This document shows, piece by piece, positions 3,881 to 52,198 of a stretch of 64,000 nt of DNA. Source of the DNA: Pelagibacteraceae bacterium AG-426-L23. GTDB lineage: Bacteria > Pseudomonadota > Alphaproteobacteria > Pelagibacterales > Pelagibacteraceae. Position 1 is the first letter of the stretch; every line of letters starts with the position of its first letter. A program made the position numbers and the translations under genes. The notes beneath the pieces are model-generated. The model saw nothing but the letters and a program-made list of their open reading frames with translations. It made no database searches and was not told the origin of the DNA. Location of the stretch: positions 124,001 through 188,000 of the forward strand of contig QCNU01000001.1 of the NCBI GenBank assembly GCA_003213115.1. Reading direction: 5' to 3'.

Positions 3881-3976
3881 AAAAGAGGCAGGCAACAACC
3901 TGAAAAATTTTCACTACGGCTGCTTCTTTTCAGACCTGACCGGGTTTATGAAACATCCACCTGATGCCAACCTCAT
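3881..3976 (-). ncRNA. ffs: Signal recognition particle RNA (4.5S type)
   Basis: Minus strand has GGTCAGGTCTGAAAAGAAGCAGCC (SRP RNA apical domain); ends pair as GAGGttGGCA / TGCCtgCCTC followed by TTTT; directly upstream of dnaX. Confidence 0.9.
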
Positions 3977-8320: not shown

Positions 8321-9133
8321 TTAGCTCTTAAGTTTATAACCTTTTTTTAATAAAAGATATGCCAAGAGACCTAAAAGAATACATAAAATAAAAAGATAAA
8401 TTGCGCCTATAAAAATTGAACCATCAGATGTCTCTAAAAAACTATATCTAAATCCATCAATCATATAGAAAAAAGGATTAAGTTTACTAATTGTTTGAAG
8501 AAATTCAGGTAATCTTTCAATAGAATAAAAAGTACCAGAAAGAAAGGATAAAGGAACTATAATAAAATTTGTTACAGTCGCCATATGATCAAATTTTTCA
8601 GCCCACAAACCTGCTATTACGCCAAGTGCACCTAGTGCAAATGAGGATAAGAAAGTAAATATTACTAAAGTTAAATAGTTCTTAATTTCTAAATCTACCA
8701 AAAAATAGAAAATTATTATGGATATGATTGCAATCATTACGCTTCTAGTAACTGCAGCTAAAGTAGTAGCAACTGTGATTTCAGCAGGTGATAAAGGTGC
8801 ATACAAAATATCAACAATATTTCCTTGAATTTTGCCAATCATAAAAGATGAAGACGAGTGAGAAAAAGACTGCTGAATAATTTGCATTGCTATAAGTCCA
8901 GGTGCTAAAAAGCTTATGAAAGAAACTCCCAAAACGCTTCCTCTATCATCCCCAATAGCTAAAGATAAAACTAAAAGAAATAACAATGATGATATTAAAG
9001 GTGAAAATATAGTTTGGATCCACACTATTAAAAATCTTAAGACCTCTTTTTTGTAAAGAGTCCAAGCTCCGGTCCAGTTGATTAGACCAAATCTTCTTAC
9101 GCCAATTTTATATTTCTCTGTAATTTCAACCAT
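8321..9133 (-). CDS. ABC-2 type transporter permease
   Basis: Six-TM ABC-2 pattern, SGTFYSIERLPEFLQTISKLNPFFYMIDGFRY. Confidence 0.85.
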   Translation of the reverse strand: MVEITEKYKIGVRRFGLINWTGAWTLYKKEVLRFLIVWIQTIFSPLISSLLFLLVLSLAIGDDRGSVLGVSFISFLAPGLIAMQIIQQSFSHSSSSFMIGKIQGNIVDILYAPLSPAEITVATTLAAVTRSVMIAIISIIIFYFLVDLEIKNYLTLVIFTFLSSFALGALGVIAGLWAEKFDHMATVTNFIIVPLSFLSGTFYSIERLPEFLQTISKLNPFFYMIDGFRYSFLETSDGSIFIGAIYLFILCILLGLLAYLLLKKGYKLKS

Positions 9134-40205: not shown

Positions 40206-41624
40206 TTAAGCATTCTCATAAAATTTCTCTAGTTCTTGAATGTAGTCATTAATTTCTTCTAACTGAGACATTTTTTTCTTATTTGATTCATGTTTGTTTC
40301 TAAGATCATCAATTGCCTTGAAAGCGCTAGGAATAGTTGTAAAGGGTTTTTTTTCAGAGGTCAAAAAGTTCTGAGCAAAATGCCTGTGAATTTTTTTGTA
40401 TTCTGATTTGTTTAATAATTCTGGATTATTTTCAAAAATTAAACGATTTGCTAAATACGAATATCTTTCATCTTCAAATGTATCTTTTAGTTTAAGTTTT
40501 TCTTCCCAGGTTTGCACCTCGTTAAATTTGCTTATATTAATATTATCTTTTGCGTTTGGAAATGATCCTTTGTAAATCGTCTCCTCAACATGCAAATCTA
40601 TTTGATTATTGAGGTTCTTTTCCTCTACTTCTTCTTTTTTTAAAATTGATATTTTTTCTGCAAGTTTTTTGTTTTTCTTAATTTTTTTCGCTCTCTCAAT
40701 CAATGTTTCCATTGGAATCTTATTATATGGCTCGATATTTTTAATAAAACTAGGATTCATTAATATAGGATTTGCTGAGTGTTTAATGGTTCTAATTGGT
40801 TTTGGTGTCTTTTTAATTTCTTCCTTCAAATGTTGAAGGCTAATATCTAAATAATGATCACAATCATGACGAAGATCAAAACAAAGTGGGTATTGAAAAA
40901 CTGGGTGCTGAGTTATAAAAGTAACAAGATGACCTCTGGGCCTTCCGCCATAATTTTCAGTTGTAATGAACATTAGTTCCTTCTCTAAAATTGATAAAAC
41001 ATCCGTTTTGCTAGTTGTCTTGAGAGATGATGCCCATAAAGCAGGAGTTTTTTTTTGAATCAACTTTGCTGCTAAAAGAGTGGCCTCACAATCTGACTCG
41101 GCGGAATGTTTCACTTCATGTTTTAAGTCATTAGCTTCTGTAATGCTTGTTAATTTAAACTCAGGATTATTCTTTGATGTTGTTCCAGTTTTAATTGAAC
41201 CTGGATAATACAAATGAGCGGCTCTAGCAACATGAAGGAGGTCAGCTTCTGAATTGCCATTGGTATTCATTAAATATGGCTTTTCCAAACATCGCCAGAA
41301 AGTTGATCTACATATAGAGCGGTCAAACTGAGATGAATTCCAACCGATAGATATAAACTTTCCTGAAGAGTTTAAAAACTTAATAATTAATTTTATCATA
41401 TCGTATTCACTTAAATTAGTTTCTTTTAATCTTTTAACGCTAACACCATTTGTAAGGAGAGCTCCTGGATTAGGGATATGAGTCTTATTTAATCTTGCAA
41501 AAAATGTTTCTCTTTTTAACTCTTGAAGTTTGTCATTACAAGCAAGAAACGAGGCTTCTAAAATTTGAGAAAAAAATAAAGAAGAATCAGAAGTTTCTAG
41601 GTCATAGAATATAAAATTAGCCAT
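40206..41624 (-). CDS. sbcB: Exonuclease I-like (SbcB family)
   Basis: FIFYDLETSDSS ExoI; SIGWNSSQFD; SAESDCEATLLAAKLI; exonuclease I C-terminal layout. Confidence 0.87.
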   Translation of the reverse strand: MANFIFYDLETSDSSLFFSQILEASFLACNDKLQELKRETFFARLNKTHIPNPGALLTNGVSVKRLKETNLSEYDMIKLIIKFLNSSGKFISIGWNSSQFDRSICRSTFWRCLEKPYLMNTNGNSEADLLHVARAAHLYYPGSIKTGTTSKNNPEFKLTSITEANDLKHEVKHSAESDCEATLLAAKLIQKKTPALWASSLKTTSKTDVLSILEKELMFITTENYGGRPRGHLVTFITQHPVFQYPLCFDLRHDCDHYLDISLQHLKEEIKKTPKPIRTIKHSANPILMNPSFIKNIEPYNKIPMETLIERAKKIKKNKKLAEKISILKKEEVEEKNLNNQIDLHVEETIYKGSFPNAKDNINISKFNEVQTWEEKLKLKDTFEDERYSYLANRLIFENNPELLNKSEYKKIHRHFAQNFLTSEKKPFTTIPSAFKAIDDLRNKHESNKKKMSQLEEINDYIQELEKFYENA

Positions 41625-41632
41625 TATTTATT

Positions 41633-42703
41633 TTATTTTAAAACTTTTAAATTATTTGGACTTTTATCTGGCGTGACATCAATTGCTTCGGGTTCTTGTA
41701 CATTTTCTAAAACATTAGTAATTGACCTTCCAGATTTTCCTGCTTCCTCAATTTTTTTCAATGAAAGATTTGTATACTTATATATTTCTTCAATAACTTT
41801 CATATGATTATTAAAACTAAATCTTAATTTTTGTAAATCTTCATAAATTTTCTTACTTCTAACTTGCACTTGTAAAGTGTCAAAGCCCATATGTAGACTT
41901 TGTAAAAAAACTGATAGTGTAGTGGGTCCTAAGACCATAATATTATATTCTCTTTGAAGAGTTTGAAGAAGCGGCTCTTTAGTTTTTGGATGTCTGTAGT
42001 TGCATACTTCAAAAAATAAACTTTCAGTTGGTAAATATAGTACGCCAAAAGGAGTAGTTTTAGGTGGTTCAATATATTTTTCACTAATTGTCGCTGCTTT
42101 ATCGTCAACAGCATCAGCAAGATCTTGTCTTGTTTTAGCAATTAATTTTTTATCATCTGTTTCATCAGCATCCTTTATTCTCTCTAAAATGGCTGCTGGA
42201 AAAAAAGAGTCTACAGCTACTAAAACATTTTTTGGTAACTTAATTGCAAATTCAACAGTTCCTTGACTTTCAGATTTGATTTTAGCATTAGGCATATATT
42301 GACTTGGAGAAAGTAAATCTTTTAAAAGCGATGCTAAAGAAAATTCCGCTGCAGTCCCAAATTTCTTAACATTAGAGAAAATCTTAGTTAAATTAGCTTG
42401 AACTTCATTCATGTTTTGAACTTTTTCATTAAAATTCTTTACGTCTTTTTCATACCTTGTAAAAGAGTCTGTAATATCTTTAGTAATTTTATTTGAGAAC
42501 GTATTATAAGAATTTGAGACGTTTTCTAATCTTTCTGAGACAGTTCGTTTTAACTCCTCAAATTTCTCAGATTCTTGCCTTTTGCCTTCTTTATCTAAAA
42601 GTTCTTTGTCTCTCTTTTCTCTATAGCTTTTAAAATTGATAAAAAAGACACCCAAAAGGGCAAGTAATATAAATATATTTAAAATTAGTATAAAATCATT
42701 CAT
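41633..42703 (-). CDS. rmuC: DNA recombination protein RmuC family
   Basis: N-terminal TM, coiled coil, VAVDSFFPAAILERI, TPFGVLYLPTESLFFEVCN, GPTTLSVFLQSLHMGFDTLQVQ. Confidence 0.92.
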   Translation of the reverse strand: MNDFILILNIFILLALLGVFFINFKSYREKRDKELLDKEGKRQESEKFEELKRTVSERLENVSNSYNTFSNKITKDITDSFTRYEKDVKNFNEKVQNMNEVQANLTKIFSNVKKFGTAAEFSLASLLKDLLSPSQYMPNAKIKSESQGTVEFAIKLPKNVLVAVDSFFPAAILERIKDADETDDKKLIAKTRQDLADAVDDKAATISEKYIEPPKTTPFGVLYLPTESLFFEVCNYRHPKTKEPLLQTLQREYNIMVLGPTTLSVFLQSLHMGFDTLQVQVRSKKIYEDLQKLRFSFNNHMKVIEEIYKYTNLSLKKIEEAGKSGRSITNVLENVQEPEAIDVTPDKSPNNLKVLK

Positions 42704-42788: not shown

Positions 42789-44765
42789 ATGAAAAAAACA
42801 GCTGTTCCAAGACGATACCTTCGAGGGGTTCAAACACATAATTTTAAAGGCTTTAAAGAGAATCAAGAAATTGAGTTTGCGCCAAAAGTTAATCTAATTT
42901 TTGGAAAAAATAGTACTGGAAAGAGTTCGATTTTTCAAACTATTAGGCTTTTTAGACAAAGTTATCAAAGTAGAGGGCTTACTCCAATTAATTTTGAAAT
43001 TCCTCAAGAATTTAGAGACAGAGGAGGTATTAACTTGGACATTGGTTATCCTGGGGTGATTAACGATTTAGATATTAAAAAAAAACTAACTTTAGGACTT
43101 AGCACCGGTATCTTTCCAATTCCGTCAGGAAATAAACCAGATTTCGGAAATTCTTCATTAGCCTACACTTTTAAGTATGTTAAAAATTTCTATAAAGAAA
43201 AAGATTTATCCTCAGAGGTAAATAGAGAATTGTTCATTAAAGATAAAACAGTTTTAGACTCAATTACAATTAAAAAAGGAATGGCATCTTATAAAATTTT
43301 ATTTAAAAAGACTGTCATATTTAAAGAGGAAAGTAATGTAGAAAAAGCATTAAGAAAAAAAACAACTAGAAGAGCTTTTAGGGAGGTTGAAAAAACAGAG
43401 TATAAGTCTATCTATCCTCCTTACTACTACAATGTTCAGATCGACAAAAAATCAATACCTGACTCATTTATAGAACAGACCTACAAAGATTTTTTCTTAA
43501 TTAAAAAAGATTCTCTTCATTTTCTTTCATTAGTAGCAACGGAAATAGATAAAAAGATTAAAAAAGGGAAAGGATTAAAAAAAACAGTATTGCATTCAGA
43601 TTATGCTCAGATAGATAAATCTCAAAAAAAATATGAAGCTTTTAAAAAAACTTTAACTAAAAAAAATCATCATCAACAAGTTGAAGAAAGAATAAAATGG
43701 ATGATAAAAAATTATAAAGATATTACAGATTTATATTTTACCTCAGTAACAGGTGAAATTTTCGGCTTTCAATTAGATCATTATAAAGTATTTAAAAAAT
43801 CTATAGAAACGATAGTAGAAAAATTCAGAAATATTAATAAAGAAAATTTTAAAAAAACTATTTTATCGGATATTGAGAAAAAAACTTCTCATATAATATA
43901 TTTTAAAGGAGAATTTGCAATCGATCCTTTAATGAAAAAAGTAGATTATGTTGTAAATAGAAAAATTGATGATTATTTGCCTTTTACATTAACGGAAAGC
44001 AATTTTTTTTATCTATTTAATATAATTCAGATGACAATTAAAGACGATGGTCAATTAAGATTTTTTGAACCATACTCTGTTGCTAGACCCGGCCCTTCTA
44101 TACTGAATGACGTAAATAGATGTACAAATAAAATGTACATCATGCCTGGTTTAAGAACACTTCCAAAAAAATACTACGTGAAAGGTTTGCAAACAGACTA
44201 TGTCGGTCCACAAGCAGAAAATCTTGCAGAATTCTTAGCGAATACCAAAATGAGAAAAACTGCTAATGACTGGTTGAAAAAATTAGAAATTCCTTATGAA
44301 ATAGATGTGAAAAAAATAGACAATTATTATTCAATTGTTTTTAAACCTAATTCCTCTAGCTCCAAAGTTTCTATTTCTCAAACTCATATAGGTTTAGGTT
44401 TTCCTTTAATTATGCCTTTTGTTGTTCAATGCATAAAGTCAGAGAATCAAATTCTTTTAGCCGAGGAACCTGAAGTTCATTTGCATCCTAAATTAGAGGC
44501 TGATCTAGCTGACTTAATTATTTGGTCGGCTAATACTAGAAGAAACCAATTCATCATCGAAACACATAGTGAAGACTTTTTGTTAAGATTATTAAAACAT
44601 GTAAGAAAGAAAAGAATTAAATCAGATGAAATTACTGCAAATTATATAACGAATGTTGGTAAAGAGGGCTCTAAAATAAGAAAAGTTTTAATAAACGAGC
44701 ATGGACAATATACTGTAAATTGGAAGGACAATATGTTTGTTGAAAGAATGGAAGAATTTAAATGA
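42789..44765 (+). CDS. AAA family ATPase, DUF3696-like (RecF/OLD-like)
   Basis: FKENQEIEFAPKVNLIFGKNSTGKSSIFQTIRLF Walker A; LLAEEPEVHLHPKLEADLADLI Walker B; QFIIETHSEDFLLRLL. Confidence 0.87.
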   Translation: MKKTAVPRRYLRGVQTHNFKGFKENQEIEFAPKVNLIFGKNSTGKSSIFQTIRLFRQSYQSRGLTPINFEIPQEFRDRGGINLDIGYPGVINDLDIKKKLTLGLSTGIFPIPSGNKPDFGNSSLAYTFKYVKNFYKEKDLSSEVNRELFIKDKTVLDSITIKKGMASYKILFKKTVIFKEESNVEKALRKKTTRRAFREVEKTEYKSIYPPYYYNVQIDKKSIPDSFIEQTYKDFFLIKKDSLHFLSLVATEIDKKIKKGKGLKKTVLHSDYAQIDKSQKKYEAFKKTLTKKNHHQQVEERIKWMIKNYKDITDLYFTSVTGEIFGFQLDHYKVFKKSIETIVEKFRNINKENFKKTILSDIEKKTSHIIYFKGEFAIDPLMKKVDYVVNRKIDDYLPFTLTESNFFYLFNIIQMTIKDDGQLRFFEPYSVARPGPSILNDVNRCTNKMYIMPGLRTLPKKYYVKGLQTDYVGPQAENLAEFLANTKMRKTANDWLKKLEIPYEIDVKKIDNYYSIVFKPNSSSSKVSISQTHIGLGFPLIMPFVVQCIKSENQILLAEEPEVHLHPKLEADLADLIIWSANTRRNQFIIETHSEDFLLRLLKHVRKKRIKSDEITANYITNVGKEGSKIRKVLINEHGQYTVNWKDNMFVERMEEFK

Positions 44766-45715
44766 TATATAGTTTCTCTTTAAGTAAAAATTTTATTGAT
44801 GCAATCGAGAAAGAAGAATATTGGGAATTACATTCCATAGTTCAATTTATAATTGATAACTTAATTGAAAAACATAATTTTTTCTTTATTCCTAAAGAAA
44901 ATTTTAAACTTGTAAAGATTTTAAAAGGACCTAATGCATCAATTTTTAAAGAGTTAATTCAAAAATTAGATAAAAAATCAATTAAAACTAAAAACGAATT
45001 TACTCCAGATTTCATGATTTCAAACGATGATGAAAAATATAAAAAAAATGAAAGTTACTCTTTAAAGAATATTCAATTAACCGAGATAAAATATGCAAAA
45101 AGAGAAATTATAAAGGATTTAGCTGATCTAGCGCCTGACAAGATTAAGATATTAGATGAAGATAAAAATTTTCAAATAAAATTAACATCTGCTCTAAGTA
45201 AATTCTTAATTCTAGCTAATAAAATAACTCTAATAGATAGGCACATTCCACGAACTTTTATTAAGAATGAAGAAATTCATAAGATTAAAGCTAGTAAAAC
45301 TATGGATTGTATAAATAAGATTTCTAAGGTCTCTGAATTTTATGGTGCATTACAAAATCTAGAATATTTAAAAAAGAAACAAAATGTAAACAGAAATTTG
45401 ACTGAAGAAGATGTAAAAACTCACTTAGAGAAATTTTTTAACGGATGTTTATCAAAATCAAGAATTATAGTAAAAGACGCTTCTAAAAATTATGCGCTTT
45501 GGAAATATCTTCTTGATTACCGAGGAATTTTGATCGAAATCAATGAAATTTTCAGTTTTTTCTTAACTGATGGTCATGGGCTTTCTTTTGCTCACAGACC
45601 AGATTCTCCTGTAAAACTAGGATTAATGGACAAGGATGAAGTTGATCATTTAATAAGTAATTGGGAAAAAAACATTAAAAAAGCCGCAAATTTCCACGTT
45701 TTTCCAAAATTATAA
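44762..45715 (+). CDS. Unknown protein translationally coupled to AAA ATPase
   Basis: 4-nt overlap with ATPase gene; no family confidently recognised. Confidence 0.8.
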   Translation: MIYSFSLSKNFIDAIEKEEYWELHSIVQFIIDNLIEKHNFFFIPKENFKLVKILKGPNASIFKELIQKLDKKSIKTKNEFTPDFMISNDDEKYKKNESYSLKNIQLTEIKYAKREIIKDLADLAPDKIKILDEDKNFQIKLTSALSKFLILANKITLIDRHIPRTFIKNEEIHKIKASKTMDCINKISKVSEFYGALQNLEYLKKKQNVNRNLTEEDVKTHLEKFFNGCLSKSRIIVKDASKNYALWKYLLDYRGILIEINEIFSFFLTDGHGLSFAHRPDSPVKLGLMDKDEVDHLISNWEKNIKKAANFHVFPKL

Positions 45716-45735
45716 AAAAAAATTTAATTTTAGAC

Positions 45736-45762
45736 TTGAAATAAGATTTTAAAAGTATATCT
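45736..45762 (+). promoter_or_regulatory. Shared-motif promoter 3 (sigma factor gene, autoregulatory)
   Basis: CTTGAAA-TAAGATTTTAAA-AGTATATCT; 26 nt upstream of ATG 45789. Confidence 0.7.
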
Positions 45763-45770
45763 ACCTCTGT

Positions 45771-45787
45771 TCGCTTGATTAAAGCGA
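45771..45787 (+). promoter_or_regulatory. 5'UTR hairpin abutting sigma factor start codon
   Basis: TCGCTT-GATTA-AAGCGA, 6-bp perfect stem, 1 nt before ATG. Confidence 0.55.
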
Positions 45788-45788
45788 C

Positions 45789-46697
45789 ATGGCAGCACTA
45801 GCTATGAAAAATTTAAAACAAATAAGTGCGCTGCCCACTAAACGAACACTACTCTCTGCTAACGCGGATTTAGATGCTGCTGCAAGGCACTTTACGCAGC
45901 ATTACCTATCTCATCGTAAATGTGACATCCCAGGTACAAAAGATTTTTCTAAACAATTAATGATTGATAGTATAGTTAACAGATTTAAAAAATCATGGAG
46001 AGGAGACTATTCAGATGATGGTCATCAAGACTTAAAACAGACGGCTCGTCTTTTAGTTCATGAATGTGCAAGAAAATACGTAAATAACAAAAAACAAAGA
46101 TCAAAATTTGATTTCTGTGTATTGGCAACTGAATATCTTAAATTTAAGCTAAAATATTACATTTTTAAATTAAATATAAATAAACTAGACGGAACTTTAC
46201 CTGACTCAAAAGAAACTAGAACTTTATATTCAAATTTAACTAAATATAAAAAAGGTTTTGGGTTTAAGGATGATCAAAGATTAAGTGAAAAAGCATATGA
46301 TAAAATATCATTTATTACAGGAATAAAAAAAGAAAAAATAAAACTTATAGACCAATCATTAATTGAGATAGTGGTTTCTGGAGACAAGAGACTAACACAA
46401 GATCAAGATAATGATACAACTTTATTTGACATTATACCAGATAGGAAGCAATCGATAGATGAAAATTTAATTTATCAAGATTTATTAAACGTCATAAATA
46501 ATTTTTTAAAAAATTGTACAGATCGAGAAAAAAAAATCCTCGCCCATACTAAGCTTTACGAAATAGATGGTATTGAAAAGAAAAGTTTAACTGAATTATC
46601 TAAAATTTTTAATATTTCAATTGAAGGCGTAAGATTAATATCAGAAAAAAAACTTTCAGAATTAAAAAAATTTATTGAGATTAATTTGAAATGCTAA
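45789..46697 (+). CDS. Divergent RpoH-like sigma-70 family factor
   Basis: C-terminus NCTDREKKILAHTKLYEIDGIEKKSLTELSKIFNISIEGVRLISEKKLSELKKF resembles sigma region 4 of RpoH; FDFCVLATEYLKFKLKYYIFK resembles region 2 ATYxxxxIKxxIQEYI; middle LYSNLTKYKK... as in RpoH. Confidence 0.72.
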   Translation: MAALAMKNLKQISALPTKRTLLSANADLDAAARHFTQHYLSHRKCDIPGTKDFSKQLMIDSIVNRFKKSWRGDYSDDGHQDLKQTARLLVHECARKYVNNKKQRSKFDFCVLATEYLKFKLKYYIFKLNINKLDGTLPDSKETRTLYSNLTKYKKGFGFKDDQRLSEKAYDKISFITGIKKEKIKLIDQSLIEIVVSGDKRLTQDQDNDTTLFDIIPDRKQSIDENLIYQDLLNVINNFLKNCTDREKKILAHTKLYEIDGIEKKSLTELSKIFNISIEGVRLISEKKLSELKKFIEINLKC

Positions 46698-46712
46698 ATT
46701 CTGAGTGTATCT
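46686..46712 (+). promoter_or_regulatory. Shared-motif promoter 4 (basic ORF-nurA-herA operon)
   Basis: TTGAAA-TGCTAAATTCTG-AGTGTATCT, 7 nt before ATG 46720. Confidence 0.75.
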
Positions 46713-46719
46713 AATAATT

Positions 46720-47058
46720 ATGACATTAAACATTAACTACAAATATAGGAGGTATCATGGCTCGGGCAAGAGTTGGTGTCGTGTACCAGAAATGGCACGA
46801 TCTTTTGGGACTCCTTTCCTTCATTTCAATAAAACCCAAAAGTCTTTCTACACCAACTCTTCTCGTAAGAATTCAAAAGTTGTGTCGCGGGTGGGTGGGA
46901 AGGTTTTTAAAAGAAACTTTAGAAACAAATACGAATGCAGATGTTTTATGAAAAATTTAAATAAAAGATTTTTTAGTCGATTTAAAAAGAACGTTAATTT
47001 TAAATTAAATTTAAGAGGAACTAAGATTATCTATTACACAGGAGCAAAAATTGGATAA
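46720..47058 (+). CDS. Small basic protein of unknown function
   Basis: Open through AT-rich DNA, ends overlapping the nurA-like start (TTG 47051); ATG 7 nt after promoter 4. Confidence 0.6.
   Translation: MTLNINYKYRRYHGSGKSWCRVPEMARSFGTPFLHFNKTQKSFYTNSSRKNSKVVSRVGGKVFKRNFRNKYECRCFMKNLNKRFFSRFKKNVNFKLNLRGTKIIYYTGAKIG
46747..46905 (+). ncRNA. Candidate structured RNA element
   Basis: Locally GC-rich; AAGAGTTGGTGT(46768-46779)/ACACCAACTCTT(46850-46861); hairpin TCGTGtaCCAGAAATGGCACGA; CTTTTGGG(46802-46809)/CCCAAAAG(46835-46842); G-tract GGGTGGGTGGGAAGG. Confidence 0.5.
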
Positions 47059-48355
47059 TAAAATATTTCAACTTTCAAATAATAAATCTTCGCTTTACTC
47101 AAGATTTATGGCTAATGCTATTACAGCATCTCCTAATGTACAAAAAAACTTTTTAGAAGTTACTAAGTCAGTAGCAGAAACAATTAAAAAAATTTTAGAG
47201 GACGCAAATCTTATTTTTGATATTGAATATAAGCCAATTGAATTTTGGTCAAAAAATAAAAACAAAACTTCTTGTTTCGTTGACGGAGGAGTTGATAAGG
47301 CTTCAATATTAAGTGCTGCACCTTTAAGCATTAGAGCTGGAAGTTTCATAGTAAAACCGAATGGTGGCTCCAAAAGAGAATTTTTTGAAGAGAGCATGGT
47401 TTTTTTAGGTGACTTATACGATCCTAAAAATGAACTATATGATTTTGATGAAGATGATTTTGAAGAAGATCAAATGATTAATAAAAAAAAGGATGGAGCA
47501 AGAATAATCTTTGAAGCAGCAACATTGGTTAAACATATTTTATTAAAAAGAAAATTTGATTACTGTTTTTTACATGGGCCAATTGAAGCTACTATCATGC
47601 CATTTACAGTTCATGGATTTCCTACTTTTACGAAATTTGCGGTCGAAAATATTTTACCTTTTTATAATAAGAATAAGTCAGATCCAGAGTCTAGGCATTT
47701 TGTTAATGTTTATTTAGAATGCATTAATTTTATTAAAAAAAGTAAGTTTCCAATCTATGGCGTTGTTGAAACCTCAGCATCTGCACCTTATATAAAAAAC
47801 CTTCTATTTTCTTACAAAAATAAAGGAATTATCTCAGATAAGGATTTTAATAAAACTCTATCTACTATTAAAAAATATAAAATTACAGATAGTAATCTAT
47901 TTGAAATTATTCTTAAGAGTTGCCAAGCTTTAAAGCCTTTAGAAGTTAAAAAACAGATCTCAGGATTTAAAGTTACTTCGGGCTCTGTTTGGGAAGAAAA
48001 AATGGATGAATTTCCTAAGGTCCATGTTGGCTACATCAAAGTAAATGACAATCAATCTCCTATAAGAGTTGAGTCGTTAAACTATCCTTCAAATTTAAAC
48101 TTAGATTATAAATATATTTTAGCAGCATCAAAACTATTACCTCATTATGGATTTCCTATTGGCCTTAACGTGGTTGACAAATTTGCTAAAATTCCAAATT
48201 GGATGGGTAAAGCATCTAGAAACTATTATACGACGCACTTACTCAAACAAGCAGTCAAAAATAAAGATCAAAACACAATCTCATTGGCTTTAAAAGTTCT
48301 ATCAAAGAAAAGTAGATCTTGGGCTAATAGACCAACAACAAGGAGAAATAAATAA
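47051..48355 (+). CDS. NurA-like nuclease domain protein (TTG start)
   Basis: TSCFVDGGVDKASIL motif I-like Asp; DYCFLHGPIEATI; C-terminal NurA-like region; directly upstream of and overlapping herA-like gene. Confidence 0.78.
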   Translation: MDNKIFQLSNNKSSLYSRFMANAITASPNVQKNFLEVTKSVAETIKKILEDANLIFDIEYKPIEFWSKNKNKTSCFVDGGVDKASILSAAPLSIRAGSFIVKPNGGSKREFFEESMVFLGDLYDPKNELYDFDEDDFEEDQMINKKKDGARIIFEAATLVKHILLKRKFDYCFLHGPIEATIMPFTVHGFPTFTKFAVENILPFYNKNKSDPESRHFVNVYLECINFIKKSKFPIYGVVETSASAPYIKNLLFSYKNKGIISDKDFNKTLSTIKKYKITDSNLFEIILKSCQALKPLEVKKQISGFKVTSGSVWEEKMDEFPKVHVGYIKVNDNQSPIRVESLNYPSNLNLDYKYILAASKLLPHYGFPIGLNVVDKFAKIPNWMGKASRNYYTTHLLKQAVKNKDQNTISLALKVLSKKSRSWANRPTTRRNK

Positions 48356-50046
48356 TGCAAAAAAATAATAAATGGTTATCAATCGGTACTGTATTAGGTG
48401 ACACAAACATAGATACTTTTCACTTTAGCTTAAAAAATTATAAGGCCAAAAAAGGTGATATAGTCACTACTCAAACAAATGTTCCTGATGGTAATGGAAA
48501 TATCATTTCAGCAACAGTATGGGGGAAAATATCTTCTATTGATAGTTATAATCAATTTTTCCCAAGAGAAGCAGCTCAAGAACTTACTAATGAAAATATA
48601 GATATTAGTGATACCATTCTTCCAACTACAAGAGATGAATTAATTTGTCGTGTTATAATTTTAGGCTACACAAAAGGAAAAGATTTAAATACAAAATTAC
48701 TTCCTTTAATCTATCCAGTAAAACCAGCTTCATGTGTTCAATATCCAGCAAGCAATGATGTTGAAAAACTTTTAATATCTGATTTAGACTCTAAACATCC
48801 TATATTCATAGGATCATTATTAGCTCGAGAAGCAGTTAAAATCAGAATTGATGCCGATAATTTAGTTTCGAGACATGTTTGCATCTATGGAATGTCTGGG
48901 TCTGGAAAAACAGTAATGGTCAGAAGAATGATTAATGAAATGATGCTTAAAAAATATCCGATGTTAGTTCTTGATATTCATGGAGATTATTTAGGCCTTG
49001 TTCAAAAACAAAAAAAGCTTTATCCAAATAATAAAGTTAAACTTTTCTATCCAAATTTATCAGTCAGTTCCGAAGATAAAGAAATTATCTACACATTAAT
49101 AGATAAATTAGGGAATTCTTTAACTGATCCTCAAAAAGACTTCTTAAGTTCTTTACTTGAAAAAGTAAAATATGAGGGCGGAAGTCTTCTCAAATATATT
49201 AAATTATTAGTTAGTAGATCTAGAGCTTATGCTGCTGAAAAATCTACTTCTTTTAAAAATATCAAACCTGCATCAATGTATGTTGTGGCTCGAAGTTTAG
49301 GACAAGTTTCAAACAAACTCCAGCACATGGAACAAACCAACTTTAAACACAGACAAAAAATGCAGCAACTTAAGTTCGAAGAATTACCTGATGCTGCCTC
49401 TGAACCAGAAAGAATAATTGCTAAAGGCCAATTAAGCATTTTATATCTTAAAGGTTATGAAACTTTACCAGCTAGTGCCATCGTCTCTATCTTATTAGAA
49501 AACTTATTTAAGCATAGACAAGAAGTAGAGGAAGAAATTCCTCCTTTTTTAACAATAATTGAAGAGGCACACAATTTTATTCCTTCAAGATCTGAGAATA
49601 AAGATGACTTACCTTCTGTTGGAACAATTAGAAAAGTCATTACCGAAGGTAGAAAATTTGGAACAGGTATAGTTATTATATCCCAAAGGCCTTCGAGACT
49701 TGACGAAACAATTGCATCTCAATGCAACAGTCAAATAATTTTTAGGATGGTGAACCAAAAAGATCAAAGAGCTATCAGAGATAGATCTGAGACATTGGAT
49801 GCTGACGACTCAAAACAATTATCAAACTTAGCTAACGGCCAAGGTATAATAAGTGGTCAAGTTGTTAACTTCTCTTTACCCGTACAAATCAAATTTGATG
49901 AAAACTTACTTAATGATGATATTGGAAATGAGAATTTTATATCTTCGGTAGAAAATTGGGATGATAAAGAAACAATAAAACTTAGAAAAAAATTTGCAAA
50001 AGATTTTTCTAACATTTCTTCATCAGATCAGAGAAGGCCAAATTAG
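48355..50046 (+). CDS. HerA-like FtsK-superfamily ATPase (DUF87)
   Basis: IYGMSGSGKTVMVRRMINEM; LVLDIHGDYLGL; FLTIIEEAHNFIPSR; ITEGRKFGTGIVIISQRPSRLDETIASQCNSQIIFR. Confidence 0.92.
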   Translation: MQKNNKWLSIGTVLGDTNIDTFHFSLKNYKAKKGDIVTTQTNVPDGNGNIISATVWGKISSIDSYNQFFPREAAQELTNENIDISDTILPTTRDELICRVIILGYTKGKDLNTKLLPLIYPVKPASCVQYPASNDVEKLLISDLDSKHPIFIGSLLAREAVKIRIDADNLVSRHVCIYGMSGSGKTVMVRRMINEMMLKKYPMLVLDIHGDYLGLVQKQKKLYPNNKVKLFYPNLSVSSEDKEIIYTLIDKLGNSLTDPQKDFLSSLLEKVKYEGGSLLKYIKLLVSRSRAYAAEKSTSFKNIKPASMYVVARSLGQVSNKLQHMEQTNFKHRQKMQQLKFEELPDAASEPERIIAKGQLSILYLKGYETLPASAIVSILLENLFKHRQEVEEEIPPFLTIIEEAHNFIPSRSENKDDLPSVGTIRKVITEGRKFGTGIVIISQRPSRLDETIASQCNSQIIFRMVNQKDQRAIRDRSETLDADDSKQLSNLANGQGIISGQVVNFSLPVQIKFDENLLNDDIGNENFISSVENWDDKETIKLRKKFAKDFSNISSSDQRRPN

Positions 50047-51151: not shown

Positions 51152-52198
51152 ATGAATAAAATTTTTTTATTTTTACTAATTGCTCTTACATATAGTTTTG
51201 CCGGAGATACAATGGAAAAAAAACCCTATCATCATCTGTCAGATGGAACTTTTAGAAATCCAGAGGGATCTCCCGAAAGAGATCCAAACGTAAAATGGTC
51301 TTATAAAAAATTTAATGAAGAAAGAAAAAAAATTATAACAGAGTTACCAGCAGATTTTGTCATTCCGAGACAAGAAGTAATTAAAAATCTTGAGAGTCTC
51401 AAAGATGAAGACTTTATAGCATTTATAGGCCATGCCACCTTTTTAATTAAATTAGGCGATATAACTATAATTACTGACCCTCATTTTTCAAAAAATGCTG
51501 GTCCATTAATCTTTGGACCAAAGAGATATGTTGATCCAGCAATAAATCTTAAGGATCTTCCTAAGGTTGATTTAATTTATTTGAGTCACCTGCATTTCGA
51601 TCACTATGATCGAGCCACGATCCGAAAATTTCCTTACAAAAATGCAAAAGTAGTTGTTCCATTAAAAGTAGGTAAATATTTTAAAAGATATAAGGATGTA
51701 AACGAACTTGATTGGTATGAGGAAATTAAAATTAATGATGATTTAAAAATAACTTTAGTACCCAACATCCACTGGAGTAAAATTTCTCTTTTTGATTATA
51801 ATAAAAGTTTATGGGCGGGAGCATTGATCACTTATAAAGATAAAAAAATTTTATTTAATTGTGACACAGGGTATGGAAATATATTTAAAAAAATATCTGA
51901 AAAATATGGCCCTATTGATTTAACATTTATAAACATTGGAGCTTATTCTTTTGAAAAAATGGGTATAAAAAAATCAATTTATCATGCTACTCCGGAAGAA
52001 GCTTTACAAATAGGAAAAGATTTAAAAAGTAAAAAAATTATTGGAATGCACGCCTTCACTTTTGTTTTAAGTTTAGAACCTATTATGCAACCATATCAAA
52101 GATTTAAAGATGGAGCTGAAAAATATGGATACAAAAAAAATGATGCAATTATTTTTAAAATTGGACAAGTTACAAAATTAAATGAAATTCTAAACTAA
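51152..52198 (+). CDS. Metallo-beta-lactamase fold hydrolase, NAPE-PLD-like
   Basis: Signal peptide; FIGHATFLIKLGDITIITDPHFS; YLSHLHFDHYD. Confidence 0.87.
   Translation: MNKIFLFLLIALTYSFAGDTMEKKPYHHLSDGTFRNPEGSPERDPNVKWSYKKFNEERKKIITELPADFVIPRQEVIKNLESLKDEDFIAFIGHATFLIKLGDITIITDPHFSKNAGPLIFGPKRYVDPAINLKDLPKVDLIYLSHLHFDHYDRATIRKFPYKNAKVVVPLKVGKYFKRYKDVNELDWYEEIKINDDLKITLVPNIHWSKISLFDYNKSLWAGALITYKDKKILFNCDTGYGNIFKKISEKYGPIDLTFINIGAYSFEKMGIKKSIYHATPEEALQIGKDLKSKKIIGMHAFTFVLSLEPIMQPYQRFKDGAEKYGYKKNDAIIFKIGQVTKLNEILN

Follow-up and report, generated by a model that had tools for sequence, protein, structure and literature searches.

A conserved structured RNA within the coding sequence of a small basic protein upstream of nurA-herA in SAR11 bacteria

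The stretch of DNA considered here, designated as the window (64,000 nucleotides; positions 124,001 to 188,000 of the forward strand of contig QCNU01000001.1, assembly GCA_003213115.1), is derived from Pelagibacteraceae bacterium AG-426-L23 and raises the question of what a GC-elevated and self-complementary segment does between a sigma factor-like gene and a nurA-herA gene pair. In a first-pass annotation, whose listed sequences were all found at their positions, the segment was taken for a candidate novel structured RNA located between genes. The gap is, however, filled with a conserved coding sequence: the frame is open over 46705-47058 with its first ATG at 46720, just past the sigma stop, and spans the RNA element, which rules out a stand-alone noncoding RNA between the genes. 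The genes of this region are the following:

45789-46697, plus strand: sigma-70-like gene upstream of ORF A, its region 4 weakly matched
46720-47058, plus strand: ORF A, gene of a 112-aa basic protein which holds the RNA element, kept in relatives and characterized by pN/pS and an AlphaFold2 model
46747-46752, plus strand: AGGAGG, a Shine-Dalgarno-like sequence encoding Arg-Arg of ORF A, distinguished by codon use
47051-48355, plus strand: nurA-like gene, with a TTG start overlapping the ORF A stop
48355-50046, plus strand: herA (DUF87/HerA_C), assigned by domain match

The name nurA is taken from the first-pass annotation and from the place of the gene before herA, and none of the family models matched its protein. 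The element is located in frame in the N-terminal half of ORF A and includes the parts listed below:

46763-46865, plus strand: the whole structured RNA element (fold z -5.67; covariation in 24 homologues)
46763-46766/46862-46865, plus strand: P0
46768-46779/46850-46861, plus strand: P1, a perfect 12-bp stem
46780-46799, plus strand: P2 hairpin with CGUG, UA bulge (46784-46785), CCA, GAAA tetraloop (46789-46792), UGG, and CACG
46802-46809/46835-46842, plus strand: P3 with arms CUUUUGGG/CCCAAAAG
46810-46834, plus strand: P3 loop of 25 nt, pyrimidine-rich (ACUCCUUUCC...) and anti-Shine-Dalgarno-like, judged by the composition of 24 sequences
46843-46849, plus strand: J31, the junction strand UCUUUCU, of which UCUUUC is kept in most of the 24 sequences
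46881-46903, plus strand: G-rich insertion present in this genome only, recognized from alignments and from a competing fold

The core has a GC content of 0.43 against 0.30 in the window, in line with the GC elevation that the first-pass annotation had noticed together with the three-way junction, in which the perfect P1 stem encloses P3 and the P2 hairpin with its GNRA-type loop (UCGUG-UA-CCA-GAAA-UGG-CACGA in the window). Across the whole 64 kb, perfect 12-mer inverted repeats with arms no more than 120 nt apart number only three, P1 included. On the plus strand the trimmed core 46762-46868 folds with -35.4 kcal/mol versus -18.95 ± 2.9 kcal/mol for its shuffles (z -5.67, with 0 of 200 as good), and the same structure is present in the minimum free energy fold of the 241-nt context 46720-46960. 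The longer interval originally delimited (46740-46910, 171 nt) is no better than shuffled sequences (z -0.61; 57 of 200 as good), because the G-rich stretch at about 46881-46903 competes with the fold. In the pseudoknot suggested between CCUUUCC and GGGAAGG the arms are indeed complementary, but the 3' arm lies inside this short insertion, which is absent from all relatives, and therefore the pairing is not conserved. In seven sequences, two of which are simpler hairpin forms at the same place, the stability z ranges from -3.6 to -7.0.

With NurA as the query, the locus turned up in 9 of 169 genomes at genus level, including two partial or distant cases, and in 15 of 398 at order level, and a genome collection provided 28 loci. 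The relatives found by protein are titled Pelagibacteraceae or Ca. Pelagibacter, save two contigs of a MAG titled Proteobacteria. Alignment A2 contains 24 distinct elements in 159 columns, all from Pelagibacteraceae and all in the same small gene 5' of nurA-herA, many of these homologues being close relatives. All 24 have P0 and P1, a P2 in which the UA bulge never varies and the loop is GNRA (each in 24/24, the loop in four versions), and a P3 whose long loop is rich in pyrimidines. Loci G038, G219, G222, and G177 have in this place a long hairpin of simpler form, with a pyrimidine loop; the hairpin form L039 has z -5.9, and L071, another single hairpin, z -4.0. P0+P1 make up a long helix in every form, including those that have lost P2 and P3.

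Across the 24 sequences the 27-pair structure has 94.4% of its cells in standard pairs, and 15 of the 27 pairs are changed on both sides in at least one sequence, with 0 of 500 shuffles reaching any of the measures; these pair counts rest on the alignment, which is reliable save in the P3 loop and the P0 3' gap. When partners are slid the pairing falls to 27-48%, and RNAalifold by itself recovers a nearly identical structure. By parsimony on the nurA protein tree, which took in the 15 of the 24 sequences that passed a motif filter, pairing is preserved through 25 double and 13 single changes and is broken by 10. Typical compensatory variants are GAGCUGG/CCAGCUC, GAGCAGG/CCUGCUC, and GAGUUGG/CCAACUC in P1 and CCG/CGG, CCA/UGG, and GCG/CGC in the inner stem of P2. 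Shuffles folding equally well, missing covariation, and substitutions governed by codon constraint alone are therefore not what the trimmed element presents, and codon constraints act on it alongside the structure. G-U cells number 37 versus 8 A-C cells, and this excess together with the GNRA loops indicates that it is the plus-strand RNA, codirectional with ORF A, that is conserved. Rfam searches with the window and with homologues gave no match to the element, which together with the covariation bears out the first-pass view of a novel structured RNA. The covariance model search in 297 genomes found the element at this locus only, with a single locus per genome; the P2 motif was sought elsewhere in 21 SAR11 genomes (e.g., in rRNA) and occurred nowhere save in the own element of G012. 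According to these data the element is almost certainly a real conserved RNA structure.

ORF A is at the same time a protein-coding gene by the usual signs, namely, a conserved frame that stays open between relatives, indels that are almost all multiples of three, and pN/pS below 1, with values of about 0.5 across the element and 0.35 across the C-terminal part. The element shows less synonymous change than the C-terminal part (pS 0.285 versus 0.479). The encoded protein is very basic (pI 11, with 28 K+R versus 2 D+E), and AlphaFold2 predicts residues 1-57 as mostly disordered and residues 62-106 as a beta-alpha-beta-beta fold with pLDDT near 90; since the N-terminal half is predicted to be disordered, the element appears to be placed where the protein is most tolerant.

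The AGGAGG sequence is found shortly 5' of the element in 23 of the 24 homologues and also 5' of the hairpin forms. The Arg codon is AGG in 60 of 61 cases at this site versus 11 of 276 elsewhere in ORF A, which indicates selection on AGGAGG at the nucleotide level. Where the sigma gene is missing, the hexamer precedes an in-frame ATG of ORF A, as at a normal ribosome-binding site; in the clade of the window the ATG that comes after it is in the +1 frame (a GUG takes its place in L071), and the g13 loci lack an ATG at this point. In the window this ATG, with a perfect Shine-Dalgarno sequence, begins a 64-aa frame (46757-46951) that overlaps ORF A in +1. This frame is likely not a gene, as it closes after 4-11 codons in relatives (in G018 it ends at codon 5, and in G012, G187, and L046 the stop falls within P2). 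Because the ATG behind AGGAGG is +1 to ORF A, a connection of this ATG with the C-terminus of ORF A through a frameshift, a bypass, or a mini-intron was considered, and it was rejected: frame A is open throughout, neither a slippery site nor matched take-off and landing codons were seen, and the g13 loci are devoid of the ATG.

The P3 loop is 64-89% pyrimidine and nearly G-free in the 24 sequences and has at least 25 nt in most of them. The cause of J31 conservation is ambiguous, because UCUUUC also codes for Ser-Phe. Pairing between AGGAGG and the P3 loop is compatible in 94% of cells, with no covariation, with +1 and +2 slides equally good, and with a strength no greater than for shuffled loops, so that an AGGAGG/P3-loop pseudoknot is possible but gains support neither from covariation nor from shuffles. 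More generally, the P3 loop and J31 pair with AGGAGG and with the starts of ORF A, nurA, and herA no better than composition-shuffled strands, and the character of both is generic anti-Shine-Dalgarno only. Mimicry of the 16S 3' end by the P3 loop was likewise considered and rejected, as it exceeded the shuffles by a clear margin in just three cases (G012, G187, and L048).

The constant part of the locus across relatives is ORF A + nurA + herA, and several sigma-bearing relatives repeat the order of a two-gene stretch followed by sigma, ORF A, nurA, and herA. In the window the row at 42789-50046 consists of an AAA ATPase (NsnB/PDC-M55A-like), a 317 aa protein, and the sigma-like, ORF A, nurA, and herA genes, flanked by an RmuC gene (41633-42703) and a gene of beta-lactamase fold (51152-52198); comparable arrangements occur again in other Pelagibacteraceae and have the appearance of a defence-type or mobile module. 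Near it, on the minus strand at 40206-41624, lies a gene resembling that of Exonuclease I (SbcB), with a match to PADLOC RTasSbcB, and a bacterial small SRP RNA gene (54 bits) is located at 3881-3975 on the minus strand. The sequence 5' of the ORF A ATG diverges abruptly in some relatives (L051 versus L050). The sigma-less loci L028, L036, and L037 have a conserved box around ATACATCTTMATGCAACTMATACGCA 5' of ORF A, which is perhaps the ORF A promoter or a regulator site. L062 (2349-2963) and L085 have two tandem copies of ORF A, of which the second, nurA-proximal one has no RNA element. A phage origin was rejected, as searches of IMG/VR and INPHARED found neither nurA nor the element; most 18-mer pattern matches in viral contigs (L042, L102, L103, L105) resemble chance, and no transcription terminator site was called at the element.

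The element is probably a switch on the ORF A-nurA-herA operon, and its transcription is assumed from its place there. The reading that we prefer, with about even confidence, is that of a cis-acting structured RNA in the ORF A coding sequence that would act on ORF A-nurA-herA translation. When the stretch is free of ribosomes the element would fold and expose the pyrimidine-rich P3 loop and J31, and these strands could then pair with Shine-Dalgarno sequences, foremost the AGGAGG just 5', or be recognised by a protein. The folded element may thereby lower initiation at ORF A or the progress of ribosomes into it and, via coupling, also nurA-herA translation, while translating ribosomes would melt the structure. 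Consistent with such a role are the position of the element, the AGGAGG, the occurrence of just one locus per genome, and the pyrimidine-rich loop. Counted against it are the pairing that is no better than shuffled, the losses in G187 (AGGAGG lost, fold kept) and L071 (pyrimidine loop lost, AGGAGG kept), and the g13 loci without ATG.

About half as probable is an autogenous operator, in which the element would be the binding site of the ORF A protein and the protein would repress its own mRNA as ribosomal proteins do. The small size and basic charge of this protein, the constancy of ORF A and element together across loci, and the second ORF A copies devoid of the element, which are expected if one operator is enough, argue for it; the weak fold-search matches of ORF A include ribosomal and KH proteins, but none is significant (best E 0.11), no RNA-binding family model matches, and the fold varies (a single hairpin in four lineages and L071) though the proteins are homologous. 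Clearly less likely is a trans-acting antisense RNA of C4 type, cut from the mRNA, whose P3 loop and J31 would pair with the Shine-Dalgarno regions of other mRNAs. The element has the c4-2 layout, and the annotated target sites of C4 in phage P1 match J31 and the P3 loop, the very strands that are pyrimidine-rich in the SAR11 element; however, C4 and c4-2 models score below their cut-offs, the R1 model misses C4 of phage P1, no specific target is conserved in the operon, and the element lies within a translated frame. In its boldest form, to which we give marginally less credence still, the same stretch would encode a disordered protein half and a processed antisense RNA silencing ribosome-binding sites, wired into the sigma-ORF A-nurA-herA module with its defence-type neighbours in SAR11.

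An element of mRNA processing or stability (e.g., an RNase III site) separating sigma from ORF A-nurA-herA appears improbable: it would agree with the retention of the long P0+P1 helix where P2 and P3 are lost but leaves the UA bulge, the GNRA loop, and the AGGAGG conservation unexplained. Most improbable of all are a DNA-level hairpin serving as a recombination or replication site and a plain coding sequence with chance complementarity. The adjoining nuclease-translocase gene pair and the abrupt upstream change before ORF A in some relatives would suit the DNA hairpin, against which stands the bias of wobble pairs and GNRA loops to the sense strand, while chance complementarity is excluded because of the compensatory changes.

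In summary, the element represents an RNA family new to Rfam with strong comparative support in highly abundant ocean bacteria (SAR11), it sits where screens of intergenic regions skip by design, and it provides a handle on the control of a HerA-NurA-type module in bacteria. This suggests possible under-sampling, in streamlined genomes, of stretches in which RNA and protein coding overlap. In the Pelagibacter RNA screen (PMC2704228) regions with conserved coding sequence were left out, so that the element would have been dropped there; HerA and NurA are mentioned in neither of two RNA surveys.

Among known systems, the rpsB and rpsL motifs of Ca. Pelagibacter ubique (PMC2704228) are likewise Pelagibacter cis RNAs with three-stem junctions but are associated with other genes and another location. 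The autoregulatory mRNA structures of ribosomal proteins (S15 and others; PMC4684408) are similarly placed near a Shine-Dalgarno sequence beside a small basic protein gene, while the SAR11 structure is well inside the frame and neither rRNA mimicry nor a ribosomal-protein identity is established for it.

The C4 antisense RNA of phages P1/P7 (Rfam RF01695), whose a'/b' mechanism is summarised in PMC5320573, is also a three-way junction in which P1 encloses P2 and P3 with little or no linker before P2 and with a long J31, and its exposed strands are again the P3 loop and J31. It differs in being a small RNA, about 77 nt long, that is processed by RNase P, while the SAR11 element is inside a coding sequence, has an interrupted P1 and a longer P3 loop, and has no specific target found, C4 a/b target sites being conserved nowhere within the operon. 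Models match in neither direction: C4 gave no match in 46600-47000 at E up to 5 and none at the gathering cut-off in the window or in L050, L029, and L068, and neither the C4 nor the c4-2 model reached its cut-off on any element tested. The relative c4-2 (RF02944, clan CL00128) shares the internal loop in P1 and a P2 of exactly 4 bp, a 5'-side uA bulge of 2 nt, 3 bp, and a GNRA tetraloop. Its own P3 and J31 are short, and its scores on SAR11 elements are far under the cut-off of 41 bits (the best being 13.5 bits, for P2 only, in L068), with nothing over it in 247 family genomes. A c4-2-like three-way junction RNA with the same P2 was observed in a viral contig (L104, IMGVR_UViG_3300047202_000066, 8787-8858 on the minus strand; 23.7 bits, below the cut-off), directly 5' of a small HNH endonuclease gene. 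Of the known architectures, that of the phage C4/c4-2 antisense RNAs comes nearest, the likeness being architectural; the SAR11 element possibly works like C4, and the shared layout makes a specific and cheap test possible.
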